Positions 28,460 through 61,351 of a stretch of DNA of 64,000 nt are shown piece after piece (the stretch's first letter is position 1; every line of letters starts with the position of its first letter). Origin of the DNA: Streptomyces griseus subsp. griseus (GTDB lineage Bacteria; Actinomycetota; Actinomycetes; Streptomycetales; Streptomycetaceae). The stretch lies in contig NZ_JOJE01000003.1 of assembly GCF_000720255.1 (NCBI RefSeq), positions 433,151-497,150 on the forward strand, read 5' to 3'. The notes beneath the pieces were generated by a model, which worked only from the letters and a program-made list of their open reading frames with translations, made no database searches and was not told where the DNA came from. The position numbers and the translations under genes are program-made.

Positions 28460-29329
28460 TCACCTGCGGCGCACCGCCACGAACCGGATCGGTGTGCCCG
28501 GGAGCGCCTGTGCCGTCGCGGAGAGGTCGACCGCGCGGACGACTCCGATCACCGGGTAACCCCCGGTGGTCGGATGGTCGGCCAGGAACACCACCGGTCG
28601 TCCGTCGGGCGGGACCTGGACCGCGCCCAAAACCATTCCCTCGCTGGGGAGTTCACCCGGTCGGGCCCGCTCCAGGGACGGGCCTTCCGTGCGCAGGCCG
28701 ATGCGGTTGCTCGCCGGGGACACGCGGTAAGGGCGCGACGTGAAGGTCCGTACGGCCTCGGGCGTGAACCAGTCGTCGCGGGGGCCCAGGGTGACGCGCA
28801 GGACGAGTTCGGCGGGAGGGCTCGGCTGCGGGGCGACATCCACGCGCGCGTGGGGGGCGAGGACGGGCCCCAGGGGCAGCACCGTGCCGTCCGTGAGCGG
28901 CGCGGGACCGAGACCCGACAGCAGATCGGTGGAGCGGCTGCCCAGGACCGGCTCGACGGCGACGCCGCCGGAGACGGCCACATAACTGCGTACGCCTCGA
29001 ACGGCCGCGCCGACCTCCAGCAGCGCACCGGCGGGTACACGTACCGGCGCGCCCCAGGCGACCGGTCGTCCGTCCAGGGTGACCGGGCAGGGCGCGCCGC
29101 CGACCGCGACGGTGACCGTGGAACGGGGCCGCACGGCACAGCCGTTGAGCGTCGTCTCCAGCACGGCCGCCTCGACCGGATTGCCGACCAGCCGGTTGAC
29201 GAGCGCCGCAGCGGGTCCGTCCAGCGCCCCCGCCCGGGGCACACCCAGGTGCGCGTGCCCCGGGCGCCCCCGGTCCTGCACGGTGGTCAGCGCCCCGGCG
29301 CGTACGACGGCGAGCGCACGGTCCGTCAT
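28460..29329 (-). CDS. pxpC: 5-oxoprolinase subunit C (biotin-dependent carboxyltransferase-like)
   Basis: A 289-residue member of the KipA/PxpC (allophanate hydrolase subunit 2-like) family: VVRAGALTTVQDRGRPGHAH, GVPRAGALDGPAA, RRSN-like 'VSPASNRIGLRTEGPSL', and the C-terminal VFLADHPTTGGYPVIGVV. With PxpA and PxpB it forms the bacterial ATP-dependent 5-oxoprolinase, opening 5-oxo-L-proline to L-glutamate. The start ATG 29329 overlaps the pxpB stop by four bases. Last gene of the five-gene operon. Confidence 0.93.
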   Translation of the reverse strand: MTDRALAVVRAGALTTVQDRGRPGHAHLGVPRAGALDGPAAALVNRLVGNPVEAAVLETTLNGCAVRPRSTVTVAVGGAPCPVTLDGRPVAWGAPVRVPAGALLEVGAAVRGVRSYVAVSGGVAVEPVLGSRSTDLLSGLGPAPLTDGTVLPLGPVLAPHARVDVAPQPSPPAELVLRVTLGPRDDWFTPEAVRTFTSRPYRVSPASNRIGLRTEGPSLERARPGELPSEGMVLGAVQVPPDGRPVVFLADHPTTGGYPVIGVVRAVDLSATAQALPGTPIRFVAVRRR

Positions 29330-29943
29330 GCCGCCCCCACCGGGACGAACCGTACGCGCGTGCCCGGTGACAGCAGGGCGGCGGGCACGCGCGTGTGGTC
29401 CCACAGGACCGTGTCGGTGGTGCCGATGAGTTGCCAGCCGCCGGGCGACGAACGCGGGTACACGCCCGTGTACGGACCGGCCAGCGCCACCGAACCGGCC
29501 GGGACGGCCGTGCGCGGAGTGGCACGGCGGGGCACGTCGTAGAGCGGGGGGAGACCGGTCAGGTAGCCGAATCCGGGTGCGAAGCCGCAGAACGCCACGC
29601 GGTACTCGGCGGACGCGTGGATACGGGCCACTTCCTGCTCCGAGACACCCCAGTGGGCGGCGACGTCGGCGAGGTCGGGGCCGGCGTAGCGCACGGGGAG
29701 TTCGACCACCTCCCGCGCGCGTGGAGGAACGGGAGGAAGGTCGGTGGTGGTCAGTTCGGACGCCCAGCGGACCGGGTCGGCCAGGCCGTCGAGGAGGACG
29801 GTGCGGGCCGCGGGGACGATCTCCCGGACGGTCAGCGTGCCCTCCGATCGACGGCGCAGCAGCTCCGCGTGCAGGGCCTGGGCCTCCTCACCCGAGGTGA
29901 CTTCGACGAGCAGGGCGCTGTCGCCGACGGGCAGCGCCCTCAT
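29326..29943 (-). CDS. pxpB: 5-oxoprolinase subunit B
   Basis: A 205-residue KipI/PxpB (allophanate hydrolase subunit 1-like) protein: MRALPVGDSALLVEV, ELPVRYAGPDLADVAAHWGV, and the family core FCGFAPGFGYLTGLPPLYDV followed by VPRRATPRTAVPAGSVALAG. It partners PxpC in the ATP-dependent 5-oxoproline ring-opening. It overlaps pxpA by ATGA (start ATG 29943) and pxpC by four bases, so the subunits are made in step. Confidence 0.93.
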   Translation of the reverse strand: MRALPVGDSALLVEVTSGEEAQALHAELLRRRSEGTLTVREIVPAARTVLLDGLADPVRWASELTTTDLPPVPPRAREVVELPVRYAGPDLADVAAHWGVSEQEVARIHASAEYRVAFCGFAPGFGYLTGLPPLYDVPRRATPRTAVPAGSVALAGPYTGVYPRSSPGGWQLIGTTDTVLWDHTRVPAALLSPGTRVRFVPVGAA

Positions 29944-30698
29944 GCGAACGCCTCCACCCGGACGCCCGACTCCTCCAGCCGCTGCCGTACCCGGCGGGCC
30001 AGTTCCACCGCGCCGGGCGTGTCCCCGTGCAGGCACAGGGAACGCGCGCGTACCTCGATGCGGGCACCGGAGTGCGCGGTGACCGTCCCGGACCGGGCGA
30101 GGCTCACCGAGCGCTCCACCACGGTGTCCGGGTCGGTGACCACGGCGCCCTCCTGCCCGCGCGGCACGAGCGTGCCCTCCTCGGTGTACGCGCGGTCCGC
30201 GAACGCCTCGGTGACGGTCGGCAGCCCGGCCTTGCCGGCCAGCTCCAGCAGGCGTGAGCCGGGCAGACCGAGCACGGGCAGGGTGCCGTCGGCGAGGAGC
30301 ACCCCGTCGACGACCGCGCGGGCCTGCTCCTCGTCACGTACGACGCGGTTGTACAGCGCCCCGTGCGGCTTGACGTAGGCCACGCGCGCGCCCGCCGCGC
30401 GGGCGAAGACCTCCAGGGCGCCGATCTGGTAGGCCACTTCGGCGGCCAGTTCGGCGGGCGGTACGTCCATCGCGCGCCGCCCGAACCCCGCCAGGTCCCG
30501 GTAGGAGACCTGGGCGCCGATCCGTACCCCGCGCTCGGCCGCCAGCTCGCACACCCGCCGCATGGTGGCCGCGTCCCCGGCGTGGAAGCCGCAGGCCACG
30601 TTGGCGCTGGTGACGACGGACAGCAGCCGCTCGTCGTCGGTGAGCTGCCAGCGGCCGAAGCCCTCGCCGAGGTCGGCGTTCAGGTCGATCGGTGTCAT
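29940..30698 (-). CDS. pxpA: 5-oxoprolinase subunit A (LamB/YcsF family)
   Basis: A 252-residue PxpA protein of the LamB/YcsF family: MTPIDLNADLGEGFGRWQL, SANVACGFHAGDAATMRRVC, and YVKPHGALYNRVVRDEEQAR. These Asp/His-rich motifs fit a metal-dependent TIM-like barrel. It completes the PxpABC 5-oxoprolinase. Start ATG 30698 has AGGAG upstream. It follows the DUF1445 gene by 18 bases in the same operon. Confidence 0.95.
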   Translation of the reverse strand: MTPIDLNADLGEGFGRWQLTDDERLLSVVTSANVACGFHAGDAATMRRVCELAAERGVRIGAQVSYRDLAGFGRRAMDVPPAELAAEVAYQIGALEVFARAAGARVAYVKPHGALYNRVVRDEEQARAVVDGVLLADGTLPVLGLPGSRLLELAGKAGLPTVTEAFADRAYTEEGTLVPRGQEGAVVTDPDTVVERSVSLARSGTVTAHSGARIEVRARSLCLHGDTPGAVELARRVRQRLEESGVRVEAFA

Positions 30699-30716
30699 GG
30701 ACTGTCGTATCTCCTG

Positions 30717-31574
30717 TCAGGCCACGCGGTACTGCTCGTCGCGGGCGTCGGTGAGGAACATCTGCCCCGGTGCGTGGGTGATGGCGAACGGCGGCCGTGA
30801 GGCCGTCACCGCGGCCTGCGGGGTCACGCCACAGGCCCAGAACACCGGGATGTCGTCGGGGGCGACGTCCACCGGGTCCCCGAAGTCGGGGCGGCCGAGG
30901 TCGTCGATGCCGAGCCCGGACGGATCGCCGCAGTGTACGGGGCTGCCGTGCACCGCCGGGAGCAGACTGCTCTCCCGGATGGCCGCCGCCAGGTGGTCCG
31001 GTGGCACGGGCCGCATGGAGACCACCATCGGGCCGTGCAGCCGGCCGGCGGCGCGGCAATGGCGGTTCGTCACGTACATGGGCACGTTGCGCCCCTGCTC
31101 GACGTGGCGGATCGGGACGCCCGCCTCGGCCAGCGCCCACTCGAAGGTGAAGCTGCACCCGATGAGGAACGACACCAGGTCGGTGCGCCAGTGGCCGAGC
31201 ACGTCGGTCGGCTCCTCCACCAGCTCGCCGTCCCGCCAGACGCGGTAGCGCGGCAGATCCGTGCGCAGGTCGGCGCCGTCCGCGAGGACCGTGTTGAACG
31301 ATCCCGCGTCCGTGACGTCCAGCACGGGGCACGGCTTCGGATTGCGCTGGCAGAACAGCAGCATGTCGTACGCCCAGTCGGCGGGCACCGAGATCAGGTT
31401 GACCTGGGTGTGTCCTGCCGCGACCCCCGCCGTGGGGCCCGTCAGGCCCTCCCGGAAGCGCGCCCGCGCGGTCTTCGGGCTCCATGCGTGCGCGTGCTCG
31501 TCGACCAGGGTCAGCGGGCGGTCGTCGATGAGCGTGCGGGGGCGGTGGCCGACGAGGTCCTCCGTGGGGTTCAC
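30717..31574 (-). CDS. DUF1445 family (putative hydro-lyase / D-glutamate cyclase-like)
   Basis: A 285-residue member of the DUF1445 family, related to the vertebrate D-glutamate cyclase that makes 5-oxo-D-proline. Seen: [57 protein letters not shown], and [20 protein letters not shown]. The family's old name is 'putative hydro-lyase', with no firm bacterial reaction. Lodged between an MFS permease and pxpABC, it is likely to act on 5-oxoproline or D-glutamate. The start GTG 31574 overlaps the permease stop (GTGA). Confidence 0.9.
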
Positions 31575-32872
31575 GCCAGCTCCTTCCCGCGCGTCTCCGG
31601 CAGTCCCAGCAGTGCCAGCGCCGCGATGCCGTATCCGATCGCCCCGAAGACCAGCGCGCCGCCCACGCCCCAGCTGTCGGCCAGGAACCCGACCGTGGTG
31701 GGGAAGACGGCGCCGACGGCGCGGCCGGTGTTGTACGTGAAGCCCTGCCCCGTGCCGCGCACCGCCGTCGGGTACAGCTCGCTCAGGTAGGAGCCGAAAC
31801 CGCTGAAGATCGCCGACATGCAGAACCCGAGCGGGAAGCCCAGCACCAGCAGCAGGGTGTTGGCCCCGCCGGGGATGTTCGCGTAGGCCAGGATGCACAG
31901 GGCCGACAGCAGGGCGAACAGCCAGATGTTGCGTCGCCGGCCCAGCCGGTCGGTGAGGTAGCCGCCGGTGAGGTAGCCGGCGAACGCGCCCGTGATCAGG
32001 AACGTCAGGTAGCCGCCGGTGCCGACGACCGACAGGCCGCGTTCCGTCTTGAGATAGGTCGGCACCCACGTGGCCAGGGTGTAGTAGCCGCCCTGGACGC
32101 CGGTGGAGAGCAGCGCCGCGAAGACGGTGGTGCGCAGCAGACCCGGCTTGAAGATCGCCGTGAACGAGCCCTTCTCGGTGTTCGACTCGCGGACCGCGAC
32201 CGCCTCGGGCGCGTCCTGCACCCGGCGCCGCATCCACACGATGAGCAGTGCGGGCAGCGCGCCGGTCCAGAACATCACCCGCCAGGCCAGGTCGTCGCCG
32301 ACGAAGGAGAAGACCAGCGTGTAGACGACCGCGGCGAGCGCCCAGCCCACGGCCCAGGAGCTCTGGATCGCGCCGAGCGTGCGGCCACGGTGCTTCGCGC
32401 TCGCGTACTCCGCGACGAGGATCGCGCCGACCGCCCACTCACCGCCGAAGCCGAGGCCCTGCAGGGCCCGGAAGACCAGCAGCATCTCGTAGTTGGGCGC
32501 GAAGCCGCAGGCGACGGTGAAGACGGCGTACGTGATCACCGTGACCATCAGCGCCCTGACCCGGCCGACCCGGTCGGCCAGCACGCCGGCGACGGCGCCG
32601 CCGATCGCGGAGACCACCAGCGTGACCGTGGTGAACAGGCCCGTCTGGCCGCTGTCCAGGCCGAAGTACGCGGCCAGGGCGACCATGCTCAGCGGCAGCG
32701 TGAAGTAGTCGTAGGAGTCCAGCGCATAACCGCCGAACGCGCCTGCGAAGGCGCGGCGGCCGCGCGGGCCGAGGGCGCGCAGCCAGCCGAACGCGCCGTC
32801 ATCGGCGGCGCGTTCGGCGTTCTCGGGGGGTGCGGTGGTGGGCAGGGCCTGCGGTGGAGGGGTCGTGCTCAT
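31571..32872 (-). CDS. MFS permease of the 5-oxoproline operon
   Basis: A 433-residue 12-span MFS transporter. The start ATG 32872 is chosen because GCGAGGTG lies six bases ahead. A short hydrophilic N-terminus precedes [23 protein letters not shown] motifs are [35 protein letters not shown], and [13 protein letters not shown]. Sequence type is that of organic-acid/sialate:H+ symporters. As the first gene of an operon ending in pxpABC, it is the probable 5-oxoproline importer. Its promoter would face the GntR gene across the 170-base gap. Confidence 0.87.
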
Positions 32873-32975
32873 GGGCACCTCGCTGAGAGAAGAGGAGGGT
32901 GCTGGGAGAGAGCCAAGCCGTGCGGAGGCCGGGAGCCGCGGTGGGGACGGGGCGTGGCCGTGCGTAGCACCGTAG

Positions 32976-33765: not shown

Positions 33766-33795
33766 TTGTCAGACCGAGGACCTAGTCTGTGCACC
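33766..33795 (+). promoter_or_regulatory. RecA-NDp/PafBC-type DNA-damage promoter of the SMC-like operon
   Basis: TTGTCAGAC (33766-33774), eight bases, then TAGTCT (33783-33788). The mycobacterial/actinobacterial LexA-independent damage promoter is tTGTCRgtg-N8-TAnnnT. The TTGTCA core, the N8 spacing and TAnnnT all match; only the 'gtg' is 'gac'. The -10 ends seven bases before GTG 33796, so the transcript would be leaderless. Confidence 0.65.
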
Positions 33796-35322
33796 GTGAC
33801 TTCGCCTGCATCGACGGACAGTGTTCCGCCCCAGCTCAGCGCGGGGCCGCGCCCCGCACCGGGACCGGCCGCCGACGAGGGGCTGGCGCGGCGGCTGCGT
33901 GCGCTCGCCTGCACGGCGCCGATCCACGACCTCGACGCACGCAAGGCCAACCTCGCCGGCGAGTACTCGGTGTACGGCATGGCCGAGATCGCCCTCGCCG
34001 CGATCGACCTGGTCACCCTGAACATGGACTTCGACACGGGTGCCGACCACGACCAGATCGTCGCCCGCCTCCTGCCGCGCATCGCCGCCCAGGCCCCGCA
34101 GCGTCCCGTCGCCGAGCACGAGCGGGTGGCCCGCTGGGTCCTGGAGAACCTGATCAACGTCGGCAGCGTCGACCGCGGCTTCCGCGCCGTGTACGGCACC
34201 TTCGCCCCCGACGGCAGCTACGTGCGTCGTGACTACGACTTCAAGCTGATCGAGGAGGTGCCCGGGTACGGCGGCAGTGTCTACCTCCGTACGACGGACG
34301 AGGCCGTCAACGTCCTCGTCGGCGCCCTCGACACCGACGTCACCAGCGCGCAGATCGCCGCCGAGGTCAAACTGGAGGTGCTGATCAGCCGCGGCCGGCT
34401 CGCCGATGCCCAACTGGCGGCCGAGCAGGCCCGGTACCGCACCGTGCAGTACTCCGAGACCCTGCGCAGGGCCCTGGAGGCCACCCGGCGCAACGTCCGC
34501 GCGGTGGACTGGCTCAACGCGGTCCCCGACATGATCGCCGAGGCACTCGACCACGTCGCCGACCGCTACCGCCACGAGAACGCCATCCTCACCAACATCC
34601 GCAAGGCCCGCGACGAGTCCGAGGACCCGGAGAACAAGCGGCGCGCCGCCGAGCTCGTCGACATCGTCAAGGACTGCATCCGCCGGCACACGCAGCTCCA
34701 GTCCCGGCTGCTGGAGGCGGGCCCCCTGTTCCGCGCCGAACAGGACCGGCAGGCCTTCGCCACACCCATGACGGCGTCGGGGATAGACCTGTACGGACAC
34801 CTCGTCGCGCCCGTCCTCCCACTGCCCCTGGAGCAGGCCCTCCGGGTGACCGACGCGTTCTTCGCGCGCGGGACCGGGTTGCGTACGCCGGTGTCCGTGC
34901 GGGTGGGTGATCTCGTCGACATACTGCTGACGCCGCCGATGGAGCGGGAGCACCTCGGGGCGGAGATGCCCGAGCCGGACCTCATCGCCACGCCGGACGA
35001 CAGCCGCTTCAGCGAGGAGCAACTGGCGGCGGCGATGGAACTGCTGGACCTGCCCGCGGACGCGCCGCGACGACTGTCGGGGTTGCTCGCACAGGCCCGC
35101 CGGTCCGACCCCGACCTGCCGTACCTGGTGGCGCTGTTGGCCGTGCACGCCGCCAGTCCGCCGGTGGGAACGGCGTACCGGCAGGGCGAGGGGAAGCTGT
35201 TGTTCGCCGTGGACGACGGGACGGAGCTGGAGGACCCCGAGTTCGGTGGGGCGGATCTGATCGTGGGGACGGCGTTGCTGGACGCGGTGGGGATGGCGGC
35301 GGATCGGACGGAGGCGGCGTGA
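33796..35322 (+). CDS. Kleisin-like candidate subunit of SMC-like system (JetA/MksF position)
   Basis: A 508-residue, mostly helical soluble protein (MTSPASTDSVPPQLSAGPRP start, no signal peptide). Helical motifs are LLPRIAAQAPQRPVAEHERV, LEVLISRGRLADAQLAAEQA, and TQLQSRLLEAGPLFRAEQDR. The C-terminal part has PYLVALLAVHAASPP and GADLIVGTALLDAV. I do not recognise the sequence itself. The assignment rests on size (about 500 residues), helical content and its place before a winged-helix protein and a huge coiled-coil ATPase, as in MukF/MksF/JetA. GTG 33796 follows the -10 directly. It is the first gene of the operon. Confidence 0.6.
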   Translation: MTSPASTDSVPPQLSAGPRPAPGPAADEGLARRLRALACTAPIHDLDARKANLAGEYSVYGMAEIALAAIDLVTLNMDFDTGADHDQIVARLLPRIAAQAPQRPVAEHERVARWVLENLINVGSVDRGFRAVYGTFAPDGSYVRRDYDFKLIEEVPGYGGSVYLRTTDEAVNVLVGALDTDVTSAQIAAEVKLEVLISRGRLADAQLAAEQARYRTVQYSETLRRALEATRRNVRAVDWLNAVPDMIAEALDHVADRYRHENAILTNIRKARDESEDPENKRRAAELVDIVKDCIRRHTQLQSRLLEAGPLFRAEQDRQAFATPMTASGIDLYGHLVAPVLPLPLEQALRVTDAFFARGTGLRTPVSVRVGDLVDILLTPPMEREHLGAEMPEPDLIATPDDSRFSEEQLAAAMELLDLPADAPRRLSGLLAQARRSDPDLPYLVALLAVHAASPPVGTAYRQGEGKLLFAVDDGTELEDPEFGGADLIVGTALLDAVGMAADRTEAA

Positions 35323-35443
35323 TGCCGTCGTTCGGACGCGGGTCGTCCGCGGCTCGTCGCGCCCACGCGGCGGAGCCGCACCGGTCACTGCCCCGCGCCC
35401 CTCGGTGTCTCGGCCCCGTTCTCAAGAGCAAGGAGTTGCAGTC

Positions 35444-36322
35444 GTGAGTGAGCACGTCGAGTGGAGTGACGCGGAGGCCCCGGCGCCGTCGGCGTCCGCC
35501 GCCGTCACACCCGCGGACGCCGCTGACGCGGCGCGGCTCGTCGCCTTCGGGCTCCAGCCGAAGCTGCAGCCCGCGCGCGACCAGGAGTACACGGAGCTGC
35601 TGCGGCGCTACCGGGAGGATCCGCCGTTCGCGCGGCTCGCGGACGCCGTGGCGGCCGGGCTGGGCCTCGTCGTGCTGGAGGTGTCCCCCCGCGCGGGGAT
35701 GGCCGTGACCGCGGCGGAGGACTCCGTGTTCGCCGTGCGCATGGGTGACTACGCCCGCCGTACCTCCGCCGACTCCGGCGACCGGTTCCTGCACGGGCTG
35801 GCCCACCTCGCGGTCGCCGCCATGGCGTTCCCGCGTCCGGAGGACCTCGCCGACGACGGGTACATCGGGCGGGTCAGCGTCAACGGGGTCGACGCGTTCG
35901 TCCGGCAGGCTTGCCATCGGCTGGAGGAACGCGCCGAACAGCAGGGCGAGAACACCGACCCCGCCACCGAGGCGCCCGGCCTGGAGGCCGCCTGGCGGAT
36001 CTGGGCCAGGCGCAGCTCCACCGGTGCCACCAAGGACGCCCGGAGACTGGCGGGTTCCACCACGGGCATCGTCGGCAAGGCCGTCGCGTTCCTCACCGAC
36101 TCCGGCTTCCTCCAGCGGACCGGCGACGACAACGGCGGCACGTACCGGACGACGGCGCGGTACCAGCTCCAGGTGCGCGACATGGCAGGAGGCGCCGCCA
36201 TGGCCGAACTGCTCGAGCTGGGCGTGGTCCCGGTGACCGACGGCACGCCGACACTGCTGCCCGCCGAGGAAACCGACGACCTGGACCTGGTGGCCGACGC
36301 CGGACTGCCGTTCCACTCCTGA
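35444..36322 (+). CDS. Winged-helix subunit candidate of SMC-like system (JetB/MksE position)
   Basis: A 292-residue protein. The central-to-C-terminal part reads as a winged helix: ARRLAGSTTGIVGKAVAFLT, DSGFLQRTGDDNGGTYRTTA, RYQLQVRDMAGGAAMAEL, with a helix-turn-strand-wing order. The N-terminus is helical (LQPKLQPARDQEYTELLRRY). MukE/MksE/JetB proteins are small winged-helix partners of a kleisin, and the position between the other two subunits agrees. The start is GTG 35444 with AAGGAG upstream. It is separated by 121 bases from the first gene and 110 from the third, so coupling is not translational. Confidence 0.6.
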   Translation: MSEHVEWSDAEAPAPSASAAVTPADAADAARLVAFGLQPKLQPARDQEYTELLRRYREDPPFARLADAVAAGLGLVVLEVSPRAGMAVTAAEDSVFAVRMGDYARRTSADSGDRFLHGLAHLAVAAMAFPRPEDLADDGYIGRVSVNGVDAFVRQACHRLEERAEQQGENTDPATEAPGLEAAWRIWARRSSTGATKDARRLAGSTTGIVGKAVAFLTDSGFLQRTGDDNGGTYRTTARYQLQVRDMAGGAAMAELLELGVVPVTDGTPTLLPAEETDDLDLVADAGLPFHS

Positions 36323-36432
36323 ACCGCCCGGAGGCGTCTGCCGCTCCCCGAGCTCTCGCCGAGCTCACCGAGCCCTGAGGCTTCCGAGCTGCCGAACCCC
36401 CCTGATCTGCCGAAGATTTACGAGAGTCCGCC

Positions 36433-39400
36433 ATGTACGAGCTGTCCCGGGTCCGCCTCTACTCCATCGGACCCGCCGGTGCGCGCTACGCCGACACCGT
36501 GCTTGACCTGCGAGGTGTGGGCGACGTCGTGCCCGATCCCGCCCCCATGCAGGCGGAGTTCTTCGAGGATGAGCCCGTCGGCCCGCCCCGCCGGCCCGCG
36601 CCCGCCGGTGTGCTCTTCCTGGAGAACGGCGGCGGCAAGTCCGTACTGCTCAAGCTGATCTTCTCGGTGATGCTGCCGGGCCACCGCAACACCCTGGGCG
36701 GCGCCAGTTCCGGCGTGCTGCGCAAGTTCCTGCTCGCCGACGACTGCGGACACGTGGCGCTGGAGTGGCAGCACGTGCTGACCGGTGAGTGCGTGGTCGT
36801 CGGCAAGGTGAGCGAGTGGCGCGGGCGCCAGGTGTCCAATGATCCCCGGAAGTTCGCAGAGGCCTGGTACTCGTTCCGGCCCGGGCCCGGACTGACCCTG
36901 GACAACCTGCCCGTCGCCGAGTCCACCACCGTACGGCCGCCCGTGGAGGGCCAGTCGGGTGCGCAGGGCCGCCGGCGCACCATGAAGGGATTCCGGGACG
37001 CCCTCACCGAGTCCGGCAAGGCGTACCCGTACCTGGAGGTGCACTGGGAGGACATCCATGACCGCTGGATCGAGCACCTCGGCGATCTCGGCCTCGACCC
37101 GGAACTCTTCCGCTACCAGCGCGAGATGAACGCCGACGAGGGCGAGGCCGCCGGCCTCTTCGCGGTCAAGAAGGACTCCGACTTCACCGACCTGCTGCTG
37201 CGCGCCGTGACGGACACGCGCGACACGGATGGCCTCGCCGACCTCGTCAGCGGCTTCGGCAACAAACTGGGCCGACGCGCCGAACTGATCGCCGAACGGG
37301 ACTTCACCGCCGGGTCCGTCGACCTGCTCGGGCGGATCGTCGAGGCCGCCGAGGCCCGCTCACGCGCGCGTGACATCCACACCGCCGCCGAGCGCCGCAC
37401 CCGCACCCTGGCCCGGCGCCTGTCCGCGCGTGCCGTACGGGAACGCGCGCGGGCCACCGACCTCGCCCAACGGGTCACGGCCGCCGCCTACGCCGTCACA
37501 CAGGCCGAGGGGGCCCGTGAGCGCAGCGCGCTGATCGCCGCCGAAATCGCCTACCGTCACGCCTCGTTGGCGCTCGCCGCCGCCGAGAAGTCCGCCGCTG
37601 CCCAGAAGCGCGAACTCGCCGACGCGCGCACCCTGCACTCCGCCTGGCAGGCCGCCGAGGCCGCCCTGCGCCATCGCGCCGCCGCCGACCGCGTCGCCCG
37701 GGTGTCCGCCGCGATCCAGGAGGCCGAGCGGGACGCCGCCCCGGCGCTCGCCGCGCGCTCCAAAGCCGCCGTCGACCTCGTACGAGCCCTGCACGCGGCT
37801 GCCGAACGGGCCGAGAGCCACGCCAACGAGGAGGAGGAGCGGTCCGCCTCCCTCCAGGAGGTCAGCGACTCGGCCTACCGTGACTCCACGTCCGCCGCGA
37901 CCGACGCCCAGCGCGCCCGCAGCGAGGTCGGCCATCTGCGCCAGCGCCTGACCGAGGTCGAGCAGGAGACCGCCGAGGCGGTGCGCGCCGGCTGGCTCGA
38001 CGACAGCGCGCCCGACGCCGACCCCGCGCGCGCGGCCCTCGCGGCCAGTGACGCCGAGAAGGCCGCCGTCGCCGCCTGGGACACCGCGCGGGAGGTCTCC
38101 CGCCGGGCCACCGAGCACGCCCGCGAGGCCGCCTCGGCCGAGTCCCGCGCGGAGCTCACGGCGGCCCGCGCGGCCGACGCGGCGACCGCGGCCGAACGGT
38201 CCTACGAGGCCGAGCGGCGGACCGCCGAGGGGCTGGCGGCCGAGGAACGGCTGGCAGAGCTGCTGAGCCTGCCCGGCGGCTCCGGGGAGGGCCGGGGCGG
38301 AGTACCCGCCCCCAGGTCCGAGGCCGACGGCGTAAGGGGCGGCACGGGCACCCGCACGGGTGCCGGGGCCGACGGACCGGGCGACCCGGCGGAAGGGACG
38401 CAGGCCGCATTTGCGGGAGGGGCGGAGGACGCGTCGGCCGACCGCCACTCCGACACCCGGTCCACGGCCGGGCGGATCGGCGGCGACGGCTCCAACCATC
38501 CGGCAGGCGCCTCAGGCACTCCCCGCCCCGCCGAAGGCCTGCTCACCCCCGAAGACCTGGACCGCTTCGCCGACGAGCTGCGCGAACTCCTCGACGACGG
38601 CGTCTCCTCCGCCGAGCGCCAGCTGTTCGAGCTGCGCACCGCCGCCGCTGACGACGCCCGCATCCTCGGCGCCCTCGGTGACGGCGGACTGCTGCCGCCC
38701 GGCCCGGACGTGCTGGCCACCGTCGAGTTCCTCGGCGAGCACGGCATCCCCGCATTGCCCGGCTGGCGCTACCTCGCCCAGGCCGTCGACCCCACCGACC
38801 ACGCGCGCGTCCTGGCCGCCCGCCCCGAGCTGGTCGACGGCGTGATCATCACCGACCCGGACTCGCACGCGCGAGCCCGCGAGGCGCTGGGCGACGCCGC
38901 GCTGCTGCCGCGCTCCGCCGTGGCGGTCGGTACGGCGGCAGCCCTGCTCGCACCGACCCCGGCACCGGACTCGGACACCGGCGACGTCTTCCTCGTGCCG
39001 CCGAACCCGGCCATGCACGACGAACACGCCGCCGACGAGGAGCGCCAGGCGCTGCGCGCGCGGGCGACGGAGCGCGACGAGGAGATCCGCACGCTGGCCG
39101 CACGGCTCGGCAAGGACCGTGAGCTGGCGGCGCGACTCGCCTCGTGGCGCACCGGCTGCCCCGCGGGCCGGCTGCTGGAACTGTCCGAGACCGCCCATCA
39201 GGCGCGGGCCTTCGCGGAGGAGGCCGAGGCAGAGCTCGCCGAGGCACGGACCGTGCGGGCCGAGGCGGACGAAGCCGCCGCCGAGGCCGCCCAGGTGCGG
39301 GACGAGCGCCAGGAGGCCGCGCAGAAGGCCCGGCGCGCCGCCGACGCCCTCGCAGGGCTCGCCTTCCGGCTGCGTGAGCGGGCCGGCTGGCAGGTCAAGC

Positions 39401-41250
39401 TGCGCGAACTCGCCGACGAGGCCACCGAGTCGGAGGCCCGTGCCCAGTCCTGCCTGGAGCGTGCGCGCGCGGCCGACGAGGACCGGCGCGCCGCCCAGCG
39501 CGCCGCCGACGACACCCGCCGCACCGCGCGTGCGCTGCGCGCCGAGCGTTCCGAGATCGCCGGTGCCCCGGACGACGTACCGGAAGACGACACGGACGGC
39601 CCGAAGGGGTCGCTGCCCGCCCTCCGCGAGGCCTACCGGGCCGCCTCACAGGTCTACGAGAAGGTCGGCGTCGGCGCCGATCTGCGGGCCGAACAAGCCC
39701 GCGCGGAGAGCGACGAGAGCGCGGCGCGGGCCGAACTGGACCGGCTGAGCAACAAGGTCCGCACCCGCGCCGAGCAACTGCTCCAGTCGCCCGACGGGTC
39801 CGATGGACCGTCCCGGCAGGCCGCCGCCGCACGCGCGGAGGAACTGGTGCAGCTCCTGGAGACCCGCATGTCCAGCGCGAGCGAGCAGCTCGGGCGGCTG
39901 CGCGGCGAGGCCGAGCGGCACGCGCCCGAGGACGGCCAGGCCCACACCGAGCTCCCCGATGACCAGCAGCCGCGCGACGCCGAACACGCCCAGGCACTCC
40001 TGCGCACCGCGACCGCCGAACTCGCCTCCCGCACCGAGGCGTTGGCGCAGGCGCGGGACGCGCACGGTGAGCTGCTCGACGCCCACCGCGCCGCCGAGGA
40101 CGCCGTCGGCGGCTTCGAGGAGACCGCCGTGATGCTCCGCGATCTGTTGCGCGAGCACACTCCGGAGGAGGATCAGGAGACGCCGGAGCCCTACCCCGGC
40201 ACCCTCGATGAGGCCCGGCACTCGGCCGCCGAGACCCGGCGTTCCCTGCGTGGCTGCGCCGCCGACCTGTCCGCCGCCGAATCGGCGGTGCGCGAGGCGA
40301 GTGACGTCCTCGTCCGCCACGCCAACTCCACGCGCTACGAACAGGTCCGCACCCCCGCGCGACAGCAGATCCGTGAGCTGCCCGCCTCCGCCCTGCCCGA
40401 GCACGCCCAGAAGTGGGCCGATGCCTTCGCACCCCGACTGCGCGTCCTCACCGACGAGTTGGCGCAGCTGGAGCGCAACCGGGACTCGATCGTCGACCGT
40501 CTCAGAGGGCTGGTCGAGTCGGCACTCGCCACGCTCAGGTCCGCCCAGCGGCTCTCCCGCCTTCCGGAAGGCCTCGGCGAGTGGTCCGGACAGGAGTTCC
40601 TGCGCATCCGCTTCGAGGAGCCCGACCAGGCGACCCTCATCGAACGGCTCGGCGAGGTCATCGACGAGGCGACCCGCGCGGCCGTGAAGAAGAACTCCGA
40701 CCTGCGGCGCGACGGAATGTCGATGCTGCTGCGGGGCGTGGCCGCCGCGCTCCAGCCGAAGGGCGTCGCCGTCGAGATCCTCAAGCCGGACGCCGTACTG
40801 CGCGCCGAGCGCGTACCCGTCGGGCAGATGGGCGACGTGTTCTCCGGCGGTCAGCTGCTCACCGCCGCCATCGCCCTGTACTGCACGATGGCCGCCCTCA
40901 GGAGCAACGACCGGGGCCGTGACAAGCACCGTCACGCCGGCACGCTGTTCCTGGACAACCCCATCGGGCGAGCCAACGCGACCTACCTGCTGGAGCTCCA
41001 GCGCGCGGTCTCGGACGCACTCGGCGTGCAACTCCTGTACACCACCGGCCTGTTCGACACGACCGCGCTGGCCGAGTTCCCGTTGGTCATCCGGCTGCGC
41101 AACGATGCCGACCTGCGGGCCGGCCTGAAGTACATCAGCGTCGAGGAGCACCTCCGTCCCGGGCTGCCTCAGGCTGCCGCCGGTGAAGCAGGCCACAGTG
41201 AGATCACCGCGACGCGGATGTACAAGCGCCCGGCGCCGAGCGCCCCGTAA
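36433..41250 (+). CDS. Large SMC/MukB-like coiled-coil ATPase with atypical Walker motifs
   Basis: A 1605-residue SMC-like protein. The N-terminal ATPase half has FLENGGGKSVLLKLIFSVML (P-loop about 64-70), where the first Gly of GxxxxGKS is Leu63. Long Ala/Glu/Arg coiled coils run about 300-610 and 870-1330. Between them are a Gly/Pro/Thr low-complexity insert (about 612-702) and a globular hinge-like part (about 735-860). The C-terminal half has the signature FSGGQLLTAAIALY (1470-1483) and Walker B TLFLDNPIGRAN (1504-1515). There Asp1508 is followed by Asn instead of catalytic Glu. This is longer than usual JetC and MukB. No JetD/MksG-like gene follows. Confidence 0.8.
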   Translation: MYELSRVRLYSIGPAGARYADTVLDLRGVGDVVPDPAPMQAEFFEDEPVGPPRRPAPAGVLFLENGGGKSVLLKLIFSVMLPGHRNTLGGASSGVLRKFLLADDCGHVALEWQHVLTGECVVVGKVSEWRGRQVSNDPRKFAEAWYSFRPGPGLTLDNLPVAESTTVRPPVEGQSGAQGRRRTMKGFRDALTESGKAYPYLEVHWEDIHDRWIEHLGDLGLDPELFRYQREMNADEGEAAGLFAVKKDSDFTDLLLRAVTDTRDTDGLADLVSGFGNKLGRRAELIAERDFTAGSVDLLGRIVEAAEARSRARDIHTAAERRTRTLARRLSARAVRERARATDLAQRVTAAAYAVTQAEGARERSALIAAEIAYRHASLALAAAEKSAAAQKRELADARTLHSAWQAAEAALRHRAAADRVARVSAAIQEAERDAAPALAARSKAAVDLVRALHAAAERAESHANEEEERSASLQEVSDSAYRDSTSAATDAQRARSEVGHLRQRLTEVEQETAEAVRAGWLDDSAPDADPARAALAASDAEKAAVAAWDTAREVSRRATEHAREAASAESRAELTAARAADAATAAERSYEAERRTAEGLAAEERLAELLSLPGGSGEGRGGVPAPRSEADGVRGGTGTRTGAGADGPGDPAEGTQAAFAGGAEDASADRHSDTRSTAGRIGGDGSNHPAGASGTPRPAEGLLTPEDLDRFADELRELLDDGVSSAERQLFELRTAAADDARILGALGDGGLLPPGPDVLATVEFLGEHGIPALPGWRYLAQAVDPTDHARVLAARPELVDGVIITDPDSHARAREALGDAALLPRSAVAVGTAAALLAPTPAPDSDTGDVFLVPPNPAMHDEHAADEERQALRARATERDEEIRTLAARLGKDRELAARLASWRTGCPAGRLLELSETAHQARAFAEEAEAELAEARTVRAEADEAAAEAAQVRDERQEAAQKARRAADALAGLAFRLRERAGWQVKLRELADEATESEARAQSCLERARAADEDRRAAQRAADDTRRTARALRAERSEIAGAPDDVPEDDTDGPKGSLPALREAYRAASQVYEKVGVGADLRAEQARAESDESAARAELDRLSNKVRTRAEQLLQSPDGSDGPSRQAAAARAEELVQLLETRMSSASEQLGRLRGEAERHAPEDGQAHTELPDDQQPRDAEHAQALLRTATAELASRTEALAQARDAHGELLDAHRAAEDAVGGFEETAVMLRDLLREHTPEEDQETPEPYPGTLDEARHSAAETRRSLRGCAADLSAAESAVREASDVLVRHANSTRYEQVRTPARQQIRELPASALPEHAQKWADAFAPRLRVLTDELAQLERNRDSIVDRLRGLVESALATLRSAQRLSRLPEGLGEWSGQEFLRIRFEEPDQATLIERLGEVIDEATRAAVKKNSDLRRDGMSMLLRGVAAALQPKGVAVEILKPDAVLRAERVPVGQMGDVFSGGQLLTAAIALYCTMAALRSNDRGRDKHRHAGTLFLDNPIGRANATYLLELQRAVSDALGVQLLYTTGLFDTTALAEFPLVIRLRNDADLRAGLKYISVEEHLRPGLPQAAAGEAGHSEITATRMYKRPAPSAP

Positions 41251-41263
41251 CCGGTGCAGCGCG

Positions 41264-41794
41264 TCAGGGGTGTGACAACTGTCCCGCCCCGCCGGACCGG
41301 CGTATCCGCTCCTGGGCCCGCTCGGCGGCACGCTCCTGCCGATGGGCGCGGCGCCGCTCGCGGCGCAGGGCCCGCGCCGTGCTGCTGGGCGCCGACACCA
41401 CGCCGTTGCGCTGCTTCCAGACCTGCCGCGTCACCCACACGTCCAGCGCGCCCCAGGTGGCCACCACCGTGCTCACCACGCTGCTGATCACCATCGGGAA
41501 CGCCAGCCAGGAGCCCGCCATCGTGCACAGGAAGGCCACCATCGCCTGAAGCAGTGTCACGGCGATGATCAGCACCGCGCGCACCGCCGCCGTGCGTACC
41601 GGGTCGGGCAGCCGACGTCGCCGTGCGGGCTCCTCGACCCACAACGGCCGGTAGGACGGCCTGGCCTGACTCACACTCCGCTGCCCGCGGCCGGATGCTG
41701 GAATGTCGCGATCCGGTGCCTCGGTCATCCGTTCTGCCGTCGCATGCGCCGTCACGCCGCGCGTCGGCGCCTCGTGCCGCTCCGCCGTGCCCAT
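41264..41794 (-). CDS. Hypothetical membrane protein
   Basis: A 176-residue protein with one or two membrane spans in the middle (VRTAAVRAVLIIAVTLLQAM then VAFLCTMAGSWLAFPMVIS), a hydrophilic N-terminus and a strongly basic coiled C-terminus (RALRRERRRAHRQERAAERA). Start ATG 41794 has GGGGAG upstream and gives MGTAERHEAPTRG; an internal ATG at 41727 lacks a ribosome site. It converges with the SMC-like gene (13-base gap) and diverges from the conservon. Function unknown. Confidence 0.7.
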   Translation of the reverse strand: MGTAERHEAPTRGVTAHATAERMTEAPDRDIPASGRGQRSVSQARPSYRPLWVEEPARRRRLPDPVRTAAVRAVLIIAVTLLQAMVAFLCTMAGSWLAFPMVISSVVSTVVATWGALDVWVTRQVWKQRNGVVSAPSSTARALRRERRRAHRQERAAERAQERIRRSGGAGQLSHP

Positions 41795-46032: not shown

Positions 46033-49000
46033 GTGACGGGCTGGCAGTTCTGGGTCGACAGGGGTGGCACCTTCACCGACATCGTCGCGCGGCGCCCGGA
46101 CGGCCGGCTCCTGACGCACAAGCTGTTGTCGGAGAACCCGGCGCGGTACGCCGACGCGGCGGTCGCGGGAGTACACGCACTCCTGGACGGCTCCTCCGAG
46201 CCCGTCGACGTGGTGCGGATGGGCACCACCGTCGCCACCAACGCCCTCCTGGAGCGCAAGGGCGAGCGGACCGTGCTGGTCGTCACCCGCGGTTTCCGCG
46301 ACGCCCTGCGCATCGCCTACCAGAACCGGCCCCACATCTTCGCCCGCCGCATCGACCTCCCCGAACTGCTCCACGAACGGGTCGTCGAGGTCGACGAGCG
46401 CATCGCCGCCGACGGCACCGTCCTGCGTCCACCGGACCTGGACGCCCTCGCCGGCCCCCTCGAAGACGCCTACGACGCCGGCATCCGCGCCGTCGCCGTG
46501 GTCTGTCTCCACAGCCACCTCCACCCCGCCCACGAGAAGGCCGTCGGCGCGCTGGCCGCCCGGATCGGCTTCCCGCAGATCTCGCTGTCCAGCGAGGTCA
46601 GCCCGCTGATGAAGCTCGTCCCGCGCGGGGACACCGCAGTCGTCGATGCCTACCTCTCGCCCGTGCTGCGCCGCTACGTCCAGCACGTCGCCGACGAGCT
46701 CGAAGGCGTACGGCTGATGTTCATGCAGTCCAACGGCGGACTCACGGAAGCCGGGCAGTTCCGCGGCAAGGACGCCATCCTGTCCGGGCCCGCGGGCGGC
46801 ATCGTCGGCATGGCCCGCATGTCGCAGCTCGCCGGCTTCGACCGCGTCATCGGCTTCGACATGGGCGGAACCTCCACCGACGTCTCCCATTTCGCGGGTG
46901 AGTACGAACGCGTCTTCACCACGCGGATCGCGGGAGTCCGGCTGCGCGCGCCCATGTTGGACATCCACACCGTCGCGGCCGGAGGAGGCTCCGTCCTCCA
47001 TTTCGACGGCTCCCGTTACCGGGTGGGGCCGGACTCGGCGGGCGCGGACCCGGGCCCCGCCTGCTACCGCGGCGGCGGCCCGCTCGCCGTCACCGACGCC
47101 AACGTCATGCTCGGGCGGATCCAGCCCGCGCATTTCCCCAAGGTCTTCGGCCCCGACGGCGATCAGCGCCTCGACGAGGGACTCGTCCGCGACCGCTTCA
47201 CCGCCCTGGCGCGCGAGATCCGCGACCGCACGGGCGACGACCGCACCCCCGAGCAGGTCGCCGAGGGCTTTCTCCAGATCGCGGTGGCCAACATCGCCAA
47301 CGCCGTGAAACGCATCTCCGTGCAGAAGGGGCACGACGTCACTCGCTACGCCCTCACCACCTTCGGCGGAGCCGGAGGCCAGCACGCCTGCATGGTCGCC
47401 GACTCGCTCGGCATCCGCACCGTCCTCGTGCCGCCCATGGCCGGTGTCCTCTCCGCCCTCGGCATCGGCCTCGCCGACACCACGGCCATGCGCGAACAGT
47501 CCGTGGAGGCACCCCTCGAGCCCGCCACGATGCCCGCCGTCCTCAAGACGGCCGACGACCTCGAGGCCGCGGCCCGCGCCGAGCTCCTCGCCGAGGACGT
47601 CCCAGGGGGCTCCGTCCACGTCACCCGCCGCGCCCAGCTGCGCTACGACGGCACCGACACCACCCTCACCGTCGAGCTGACCGAGCCCGACCCGATGAGG
47701 CACGCCTTCGAAGAACGTCATCGCGCCACGTACTCCTTCACGCTCGACCGCCCGATCGTCGTCGAAGCGCTCTCCGTGGAAGCCACCGGCATCACCCCAA
47801 CCCCCGATCTCTCCGCCCTCGCCCCGTACGAAGGCCACTTCGCCACGCCCGGAACCGTCCACCTGCACACGGGCGGCGCCTGGCGCGACGTACCCCTCCA
47901 CCGCCGCGAGGAACTGCCTCCCGGCGAGACCGTCACCGGACCCGCGATCATCACCGAGGCCAGTGCGACGACCGTCGTCGACGACGGCTGGCAGGCCGCG
48001 GCGACCGACGACGGGCATCTGGTCATGGAACGCGCGGCGATCACGGAGAGTTCCGGTCTCGACACACAAGCCGACCCGGTTCTGCTTGAGGTCTTCAACA
48101 ACCTCTTCATGTCGATCGCCGAGCAGATGGGTGCCCGACTGGAGTCCACCGCCCAGTCCGTCAACATCAAGGAACGGCTGGACTTCTCCTGCGCCCTCTT
48201 CGACCCCGACGGAAACCTGGTGGCCAACGCCCCGCACATCCCCGTCCACCTGGGCTCGATGGGCACGACCGTCAAAGAGGTCATCCGGCGCCGAAGTACC
48301 GGAATGCGGCCCGGGGACACCTACGCGGTCAACGACCCGTACCACGGCGGCACCCACCTCCCGGACGTCACCGTCATCACCCCCGTGTTCGAGACGCACA
48401 GCCCCACAGCTTCCTCGAACACAAAGAGTCACCGAATCCTCTTCTACGTTGCCTCCCGCGGCCATCACGCCGAGATCGGCGGCATCGCCCCCGGCTCGAT
48501 GCCGGCGAACAGCCGCACCATCGAGGAGGAGGGCGTGCTCTTCGACAACTGGCTGCTCGCCGAGAACGGCCGCCTCCGAGAGCGGGAGACGCTTCGCCTG
48601 CTCAGCGAGGCGCCCCACCCCTCCCGCAACCCCAGGACCAACCTCGCCGACCTGAGGGCTCAGATCGCCGCCAACCAGAAAGGCGTCGACGAGGTCGGCC
48701 GCATGATCCAGAACTTCGGCCTCGATGTCGTCCAGGCCTACATGAAGCACGTCCAGGACAACGCAGAGGAGGCCGTGCGCCGCGTCATCGACGCCCTGGA
48801 CGACGGTGAGTACGCCTACGAGACCGACTCGGGTGCCGTCATCCGCGTACGCGTGCGCGTGGACCGCGAGAACCGGTCGGCGACCGTCGACTTCACCGGC
48901 ACGTCAGCACAGCTGGACACCAACTTCAACGCGCCCTCCGCAGTCGTCAACGCGGCCGTCCTGTACGTCTTCCGCACCCTGGTGGACGACGACATCCCGC

Positions 49001-49677
49001 TCAACGACGGCTGTCTGCGCCCGCTGCGGATCATCGTGCCGGCCGGCTCCCTGCTGGCACCCGAGCCACCCGCCGCCGTCGTCGCAGGCAACGTCGAGAC
49101 CTCGCAGGCGATCACCGGTGCCCTCTACGCGGCGCTCGGCGTCCAGGCCGAGGGATCCGGCACCATGAACAACGTCACCTTCGGCAACCAGAACCACCAG
49201 TACTACGAGACCGTCGCCTCCGGCTCCGGCGCGGGCGACGGCTTCCCCGGCGCGAGCGTCGTCCAGACCCACATGACCAACTCGCGGCTCACCGACCCCG
49301 AAGTCCTGGAGTCGCGACTGCCCGTCCAGCTCGACGAGTTCGCCCTCCGGTGCGGCAGCGGCGGCGATGGACGATGGCGAGGCGGGGACGGAGCGGTCCG
49401 ACGCATCCGATTCCACGAACCCATGACCGTCTCCACGCTCTCCCAGCACCGCAGGGTCCCCCCGTACGGCATGGCGGGCGGTGGGCCCGGCGCCCTGGGG
49501 GCCAACCGTGTGGAACGGGCGGACGGCACCGTGGTCGAACTGCGCGGTAGCGACTCGGCGGACGTCGGCCCCGACGACGTACTCGTCATCGAAACCCCCG
49601 GCGGCGGAGGCTATGGCCCACCGCCGCACGACCCCCATCAAGCAGGAGAACAGATCGATGATCTTCGGGCGTTCTGA
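46033..49677 (+). CDS. Hydantoinase A/B fusion, 5-oxoprolinase (OPLAH)-type, inside the conservon
   Basis: A 1214-residue fused hydantoinase/5-oxoprolinase. The HyuA half (about 1-690) starts [20 protein letters not shown], then [40 protein letters not shown], and [20 protein letters not shown]. The HyuB half (about 690-1205) has [20 protein letters not shown] and [20 protein letters not shown]. The fused length equals the eukaryotic-type ATP-dependent 5-oxoprolinase. GTG 46033 follows GGGGTGAGG. It splits the conservon: it lies between cvnC and cvnD, overlapping cvnD by 20 bases. Substrate (5-oxoproline or a hydantoin) is not certain. Confidence 0.92.
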
Positions 49678-60394: not shown

Positions 60395-60417
60395 TTGTCA
60401 GTGCCGCCGATTACTGT
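60395..60417 (+). promoter_or_regulatory. RecA-NDp/PafBC-type DNA-damage promoter
   Basis: TTGTCAGTG (60395-60403), eight bases, TACTGT (60412-60417): an exact match to tTGTCRgtg-N8-TAnnnT. Transcription would start near 60424, giving a 34-base leader to the ATG at 60458. Confidence 0.85.
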
Positions 60418-60457: not shown

Positions 60458-61351
60458 ATGACGCACATCGACCATCAGACGATGCGGCGCGTCCTGCGGC
60501 GCGAAATCGCCGGCACCATCGGCCTGCTCACAGACGAACACGACTTCCGCGCCATGCGGCGCTACCGCAGTTTCACCTTCGACGACCACGAGACCTACCT
60601 ACAACAGGTCGAGGCCCTTCTGAAGGTCCGCGACGCCCAGGGCAACCACACGACGGTGGCCCTCTTCGACCCACTCGAGTACGCCGAGTACTGCGCGGAC
60701 AAGGGCCTCGACCCCGACCTCCCCGCCAGCCGCACCCGCTTCACGGCCGAACTCGCGACCACCGGCCCCAGCGTCCCCTACGAGGGGCAGCCCCTCGCCG
60801 CCCTGGTACCCGCCCTCGTCGACGAAGCCATCCGACAGGCGACCTGGGAATACGCCGCCACACTCCTGGCCCGCCGCGGCGCCTGCGCCACCTGCGGTGC
60901 GGACATCGGACGCGCCTCTCTGGCCCGCGCCTCGATCCTCCTCGACCGCATCATCGACACCGCGCCCGCCGGCAGCAGTCACCTCGTCTGCAGTGTCTCG
61001 GGGACACCGGAGGCGCTCGTCGCCGTCCTCCACGCCGACGACGGAGCGGACGGCATCGCACAACTCGACGAGGCCGAGGTCCTCGAATTCACCACCGTCC
61101 TCGCCGTCGGCCTCGCCACGCAGAGCCCGGGTGGACTCGTCATGCGCACCAGCGCGCCCGGCACCCCCGACCGTGTCTACGGCTGGCGCCTGCGCGGGGA
61201 CCGTCTGGAACCCCTGACAGCCGGCGAGGTCTTCGACGCCTACTGCACCGACATCGAATCCGGGGACCTCATCTCCCCGGAGTCCGACGTCGACTACGGC
61301 GCGCCGCCCGACCTCGGAGAGGACAAGCGCCTGCCCGGACACCGGCACTGA
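60458..61351 (+). CDS. Conserved hypothetical protein behind a DNA-damage promoter
   Basis: A 297-residue cytoplasmic protein, start ATG 60458 behind GGGGGAA. N-terminal helical part MTHIDHQTMRRVLRREIAGT, then FTFDDHETYLQQVEALLKVR. A CxxC (GACATCGADIG) follows TWEYAATLLARR, then a mixed alpha/beta C-terminus (SHLVCSVSGTPEALVAVLHA). No catalytic motif or domain is recognised. Its promoter matches the PafBC-type damage consensus exactly, which is the best clue: a DNA-damage or proteotoxic-stress role is likely. A terminator follows the stop. Confidence 0.8.
   Translation: MTHIDHQTMRRVLRREIAGTIGLLTDEHDFRAMRRYRSFTFDDHETYLQQVEALLKVRDAQGNHTTVALFDPLEYAEYCADKGLDPDLPASRTRFTAELATTGPSVPYEGQPLAALVPALVDEAIRQATWEYAATLLARRGACATCGADIGRASLARASILLDRIIDTAPAGSSHLVCSVSGTPEALVAVLHADDGADGIAQLDEAEVLEFTTVLAVGLATQSPGGLVMRTSAPGTPDRVYGWRLRGDRLEPLTAGEVFDAYCTDIESGDLISPESDVDYGAPPDLGEDKRLPGHRH

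Follow-up and report, generated by a model that had tools for sequence, protein, structure and literature searches.

A JetD-less branch of Wadjet type III is core to the Streptomycetaceae and may have become a housekeeping SMC complex

A stretch of 64,000 nucleotides from Streptomyces griseus subsp. griseus (contig NZ_JOJE01000003.1, positions 433,151 to 497,150; in the following the window, to which all coordinates refer unless another contig is named) contains three consecutive open reading frames (ORFs) on the plus strand, jetA, jetB and jetC, that encode a predicted kleisin, a winged-helix subunit and an SMC (structural maintenance of chromosomes) ATPase. By profile, jetABC is Wadjet type III, and the nuclease JetD is missing. 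On balance, we consider it likely that the locus is a JetD-less Wadjet type III branch that has turned into a housekeeping, chromosomal SMC complex, which DNA damage probably induces and which probably acts in repair. We put forward a bolder version tentatively, as a possibility somewhat short of even: that what amounts to a bacterial Smc5/6, a repair complex that extrudes loops, is induced by damage and has no nuclease, arose from an anti-plasmid Wadjet system through one loss of JetD and subsequent fixation in the core genome of a mycelial family with very large chromosomes. The three genes are:

33796 to 35322, plus strand: jetA, kleisin, MukF/JetA-like, 508 residues; GTG start at 33796, longest ORF from a TTG at 33766
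35444 to 36322, plus strand: jetB, KITE winged-helix subunit, MukE/JetB-like, 292 residues; GTG start at 35444, longest ORF from 35405
36433 to 41250, plus strand: jetC, SMC ATPase, 1605 residues; PADLOC profile JetC3 (PDLC00588) at 1423.6 bits; Walker A, signature and Walker B motifs

JetA matches the PADLOC profile JetA3 (PDLC00567) with an E-value of 1.3e-186 and, together with the JetC3 match of JetC, this identifies kleisin and SMC subunit as those of Wadjet type III. JetB has no match to the JetB3 profile at E up to 1; this profile is weak, as even a homologous JetB from a JetD-bearing operon reaches no more than 17 bits. Identities to one JetD-bearing operon (L102) are 52% for JetA, 50% for JetB and 42% for the best aligned piece of JetC. 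When predicted folds were compared with Foldseek, MukF ranked top for JetA and MukE for JetB, with moderate matches. A first-pass annotation of this DNA had described three consecutive genes of 508, 292 and 1605 residues as kleisin, winged helix and SMC protein: the genes are present as described, profiles and predicted folds agree with the three identities, and the structure comparison that it had proposed returned a MukF-like kleisin fold for JetA and a MukE/JetB-like fold for JetB, with no sign of a missing kleisin. Pfam and NCBIfam, searched at E up to 1, gave no MukB, MukE, MukF or Mks family match for any of the three proteins, and a sequence search of the PDB gave no match at all for JetA or JetC. 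The ScpA and SMC_N families have no match among the proteins of the window; the ScpA of Smc-ScpAB is encoded elsewhere in the same genome (contig C3:31822-32484). The layout, as judged from profiles and predicted folds, is that of MksBEF and MukBEF: kleisin, KITE and SMC protein in one operon and no nuclease.

The operon is near-universal, and thus core, in the Streptomycetaceae. JetA was found in 294 of 297 sampled genomes of the family and in 17 of 17 genera, one of which (g15, genome G049) was matched only via a distant JetD-bearing copy. Of the three genomes with no JetA match, G177 has a JetC with 82% identity, and G114 and G250 have a match to neither JetA nor JetC; the core complex is therefore supported in 294 of the 297 genomes, in 293 via JetA and in one via JetC. 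In a class-wide sample of 394 genomes JetA was present in 62: 40 belong to the genus of the window, 19 (of 35 sampled) to a second actinomycete family, f20, one to f48, and two matches are marginal (E-values of 3.5e-4 and 7.8e-4).

The three genes are under purifying selection. The median ratios of nonsynonymous to synonymous substitutions (dN/dS), relative to the window, are 0.070 for jetA (80 named Streptomyces loci), 0.098 for jetB (79 loci) and 0.119 for jetC (79 loci, best aligned piece), the three lowest of 12 genes: nine neighbouring genes range from 0.132 to 0.314 (40-79 loci each). Plain identity sets JetA (94.6%) and JetB (91.4%) apart from the neighbours. Of 100 related loci, 96-99 keep the gene order A-B-C; this, together with the purifying selection, means that the gene set is more than a chance arrangement. 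The core jetABC genes of Streptomyces are spaced, with a median of 88 nucleotides between jetA and jetB (79 loci) and of 66 nucleotides between jetB and jetC (73 loci), whereas jetA and jetB of JetD-bearing operons overlap (median -4 nucleotides, 17 loci); the JetD-less f20 genes overlap as well (median -4 nucleotides, 13 loci).

JetD is a trait of accessory copies, and the core copy has none. There is no JetD in the flanks of the window jetABC, in line with the local absence that had been annotated first, and none beside the core locus in 73 named Streptomyces loci (those with a complete JetC and 3.8-4.4 kb downstream), in 14 further loci of the family or in 12 loci with the main f20 copy (jetC 3' end and at least 1.2 kb beyond); three other f20 loci (L137, L139 and L148) are JetD-bearing. 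For the f48 locus (L138), two downstream ORFs have no PADLOC JetD match. A divergent JetD nearby was considered and rejected: tblastn with two JetD3 proteins found none beside the core copies examined. The same search placed JetD adjacent to JetC in 20 of 20 JetD loci, and likewise in 20 operons in which JetA is present too.

The genome-wide check for JetD that had been suggested did not refute the first-pass reading, but led to one correction. PF09983 and PF11795 have no match in the genome of the window and the core operon contains no JetD; the type III profile PDLC00594 does find one JetD3-like gene, on contig C49, within a separate JetABCD operon of its own. This second, distant Wadjet III operon (L101, C49:3302-10935) is complete, with a JetA that shares 27% identity with that of the core operon. 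Family-wide, the same profile matches 35 of 297 genomes, 27 of them at E-values below 1e-40 and eight weakly; 23 of the 27 strong-match genomes have at least two JetA matches, and 26 of the 297 combine the core copy with a strong JetD3 match. The end of JetC adjoins JetD in all 20 JetD loci of this set (L106-L125). JetD loci thus have their own JetC and mostly a second JetA in the genome, which is why we assign JetD to the accessory copies.

A tree from the concatenated JetA, JetB and JetC head columns places the JetD-less copies of Streptomycetaceae and f20 in one clade (100/99), sister to the JetD-bearing L139 (98/94), with JetD-bearing operons on the remaining branches. The tree contains 38 loci (10 core, 10 f20, 17 JetD-bearing and L138); near copies, fragments and cut or poorly called loci were omitted, among them L103, L104, L105, L106-L125, L127, L133-L136, L141, L142, L144, L146, L149, L151, L153, L156 and L162. 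Since the JetD-less lineages of both families form one clade among JetD-bearing operons, a single loss of JetD would be enough, provided that the root lies outside this clade. A tree of JetA only, in which the window is represented by 70 residues, has two JetD-less clades in an unresolved fork; L104, L105, L146 and L149, labelled JetD-less from contig ends, were not counted there. Residues that switch between the JetD-less class and 14 comparison rows (13 JetD-bearing loci and L138) number three in JetA, none in JetB and four in JetC. As a scan for loss of a JetD-binding surface, these sites were not informative and the idea was dropped.

Directly upstream of jetA is a conserved promoter box:

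33766 to 33788, plus strand: RecA-NDp-type box TTGTCAG-N10-TAGTCT, ending 7 nucleotides before the GTG of jetA

With this spacing the jetA transcript is probably leaderless. Where the upstream DNA is complete, 99 of 99 Streptomyces loci contain TGTCRG-N9..11-TAnnnT, 97 of them at -29. TGTCRG-N10-TAnnnT has 81 matches on the two strands of the 80 named loci (1.64 Mb in total) and 80 of these are at jetA; in the window there are two, with 0.15 expected. All 14 further loci, of which 11 belong to three other genera and three to Streptomyces, have the box with a changed spacer, and 11 of the 14 have it in the form TGTCRGTG-N8-TAnnnT, which we take to be the RecA-NDp consensus. By this assumed consensus, jetA has the upstream box expected of a member of the PafBC (RecA-NDp) regulon. 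The second box of the window (60395-60417, plus strand; TGTCAGTG-N8-TAnnnT) fits the assumed consensus, and the 297-residue ORF behind it (60458-61351), which has no Pfam family, is a candidate damage-response gene.

In the genome of the window, TTGTCAG-N10-TAnnnT occurs at 37 sites and the reversed pattern at one. The 37 sites led to 30 loci that were examined for a downstream gene; without three that lack a gene call and without jetA itself, 26 genes remain. Eleven of these 26, a raw count uncorrected for background, encode repair enzymes or helicases: UvrA, UvrB, O6-methylguanine methyltransferase, RuvC, MgsA/RarA, uracil-DNA glycosylase, a RadA-like protein (a name given by us), a RecD2-type protein, two DEAD helicases and one SNF2-type helicase. 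The remaining 15 genes encode an MFS protein, an enoyl-CoA hydratase, ribosomal protein S6, PhoH, a SWIM protein, YjbR, a HAD hydrolase, an FAD/NAD oxidoreductase, a PDZ/Lon protein, SUKH-4, DUF4253, DUF4132 and three proteins with no family. In Streptomyces the sites, in front of repair genes and genes of unknown role (DUF4253, DUF4132, SUKH-4, SWIM and YjbR), outline a candidate regulon of the PafBC type. L147 and L164, both JetD-bearing Wadjet III operons of the genus, have TGTCAGTG-N8-TAGCTT and TGTCAGTG-N8-TAGCGT upstream of jetA, and damage-linked expression may thus extend to true Wadjet systems. PafBC acts via RecA-NDp promoters (PMC6789036, PMC8223512).

The strongest rival is a second condensin that is made constitutively to organise large mycelial chromosomes, with a box that is not under damage control. 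We regard this as rather unlikely: 13 of 14 f20 copies manage without the box, as such a condensin would, but TGTCRG and TAnnnT have kept their fixed spacing across genera despite the changed spacer, and the same motif precedes the repair enzymes and helicases listed above.

A chromosomal complex that responds to damage could work as follows. As in MukBEF and JetABC, JetC dimers would form an ATP-driven, loop-extruding ring, with the kleisin JetA and the KITE JetB closing it; the architecture comes from profiles and predicted folds, and the extrusion activity is presumed. JetD would have been lost once, before the copies of Streptomycetaceae and f20 separated by descent or transfer, and the operon would then have entered the core genome of the Streptomycetaceae with a promoter of the RecA-NDp type. 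Given this promoter type, DNA damage probably induces jetABC by way of PafBC. During repair the complex would probably work next to Smc-ScpAB, where it would extrude, compact or tether chromosomes and leave plasmids uncut. We infer from all this that it helps to maintain or repair the chromosome, and what began as an anti-plasmid weapon may have become a tool of chromosome care. Among the options of the first-pass annotation, the condensin lacking a nuclease is thus the best supported.

Instead of the chromosome, the complex could restrain circular DNA uncut: after damage it would extrude, compact and silence excised elements or incoming plasmids, by analogy to what was proposed for Smc5/6 on viral circles in eukaryotes. 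Wadjet senses circular DNA by an activity of the loop-extrusion type and Smc5/6 was proposed to compact circular viral DNA (PMC10586767), and a damage-type promoter would suit the moment at which integrated elements excise; the core status throughout the family suits chromosome upkeep at least equally, and we consider restraint of circles distinctly unlikely. The least probable of the rivals is defence against plasmids or phages with a nuclease in trans, which could be a JetD encoded in a different operon or some unrelated nuclease of the host: the subunits are near those of JetD-bearing operons, with few class-specific switches, and the genome does encode a JetD3-like protein elsewhere, but 262 of 297 family genomes have no match to the single JetD3 profile while 294 have JetA, in 20 of 20 loci JetD adjoins a JetC of its own, and JetD-bearing copies are scattered, unlike the core operon, which is nearly universal and keeps its neighbourhood. 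These readings overlap and are not mutually exclusive.

Several points weigh against a nuclease-free, damage-raised complex of the chromosome. JetC, with 88.4% identity, is within the 72.2-88.9% of its neighbours and no better conserved than they are. Most of the Streptomyces boxes displayed read TGTCAGAC, two letters off the TGTCRGTG that we assume, and the eleven of 26 repair or helicase genes are an uncorrected count. An initial search suggested that the PafBC motif of M. smegmatis is not conserved in S. venezuelae (PMC9380542). The box is present at one of 14 f20 copies and at two of 20 JetD-bearing operons, and is therefore not tied to the loss of the nuclease. The family-wide search for JetD used one profile, PDLC00594, and the single loss depends on where the joined tree is rooted. 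Finally, the JetD-less subunits are set apart by few residues, so that binding of JetD in trans is conceivable.

The motifs and the insert of JetC are:

36622 to 36642, plus strand: Walker A motif ENGGGKS, residues 64-70; the same motif is found in relatives
approximately 38275 to 38547, plus strand: Gly/Pro-rich low-complexity insert at the arm-hinge junction, limits judged from composition
40840 to 40854, plus strand: ABC signature FSGGQ, residues 1470-1474
40945 to 40959, plus strand: Walker B motif LFLDN, residues 1505-1509; Asn replaces the usual catalytic Glu (not LFLDE)

The layout first proposed for JetC, with two ATPase halves, two coiled-coil arms and a central globular part, holds for the ATPase motifs near both ends; arms and hinge can be recognised by composition, with a mixed heptad signal that is most mixed in the first arm. 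The arms (about residues 281-616 and 869-1260) are poor in Gly and Pro and rich in AELRQKD, and between them are the Gly/Pro-rich insert and a hinge-like part. The junction insert has 20-114 residues in eight of eight core rows listed and 16-85 residues in six of eight f20 rows; 11 of 14 comparison rows have none of at least 8 residues and three have one of 9-10. The f20 JetCs have further inserts at other positions.

The Walker B motif ends in DN in 73 of 73 core, 14 of 14 f20 and 36 of 38 JetD-bearing JetCs by pattern match, and reading by eye gives LDN for the JetCs of L101 and L103. The context is LDNPIG in type III JetCs, with or without JetD. The catalytic Glu that usually follows the Walker B Asp of SMC and ABC ATPases is hence Asn in type III JetCs. 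A dead ATPase as the special trait of this locus was rejected: the Asn is common to JetD-bearing type III JetCs.

A GntR/FCD regulator gene is upstream of jetA and a small minus-strand gene (41264-41584) is convergent with jetC, which agrees with the GntR regulator and the convergent gene of the first-pass annotation. Upstream synteny holds well over 100 loci with flanks of differing length: 96 have the GntR gene, 84 an MFS gene and 71 the gene at 29940. Downstream, the small convergent gene is found in 46 of 100 loci and in 14 of 14 further family loci. A conservon-like operon is also downstream of jetC in the Streptomycetaceae, and f20 has other genes there. A replacement effector adjoining jetC was rejected: within up to about 4 kb, no one gene 3' of jetC is common to both families. 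5-Oxoprolinase-like genes flank jetABC on either side (28460-32878 and 46033-49677); the one that encodes 1214 residues lies between what we take to be genes 3 and 4 of the conservon-like cluster.

According to a suggestion in a review, MukBEF, MksBEF and similar SMC complexes of the chromosome are former defence systems that lost their nuclease (PMC10586767). With JetD-bearing and JetD-less lineages within one family, this change from defence to chromosome becomes testable subunit by subunit. The locus would also give a second SMC complex to Streptomyces, a producer of antibiotics and a model in the study of chromosome compaction. It also points towards a regulon of the RecA-NDp type in this genus, a matter that PMC9380542 left open. 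A literature search, with most subscription journals outside its reach and the texts partial, found no report of the jetABC locus in Streptomyces, and presumed S. coelicolor locus tags led to no paper either.

Among known systems, jetABC resembles Wadjet type III in the JetA and JetC profile matches, the order A-B-C and the Walker B context LDNPIG; it differs in having no JetD, in being core and not accessory, in its spaced and not overlapping genes and in the low-complexity insert of JetC. Strictly speaking, jetABC falls outside Wadjet, since JetD, a defining part, was looked for and is missing. A survey reported Wadjet in 42% of Actinobacteria, with the Streptomyces copies mostly near the chromosome ends (PMC10482375); its counts may include jetABC. 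With MksBEF and MukBEF it shares kleisin, KITE and SMC protein, the absence of a nuclease and the top Foldseek ranks of MukF and MukE, and plausibly works like MksBEF; it has no match to the Muk or Mks families, and its nuclease would have been lost separately, within type III. MksBEFG/EptABCD of Corynebacterium and Mycobacterium are likewise SMC-like Jet complexes (Wadjet) of actinobacteria, but carry the nuclease MksG/JetD and act against plasmids (PMC10123090, PMC10586767). The likeness to Smc5/6 would be functional only, that of an SMC complex for genome stability with a proposed compaction of circular viral DNA (PMC10586767), built from other subunits and of other ancestry.

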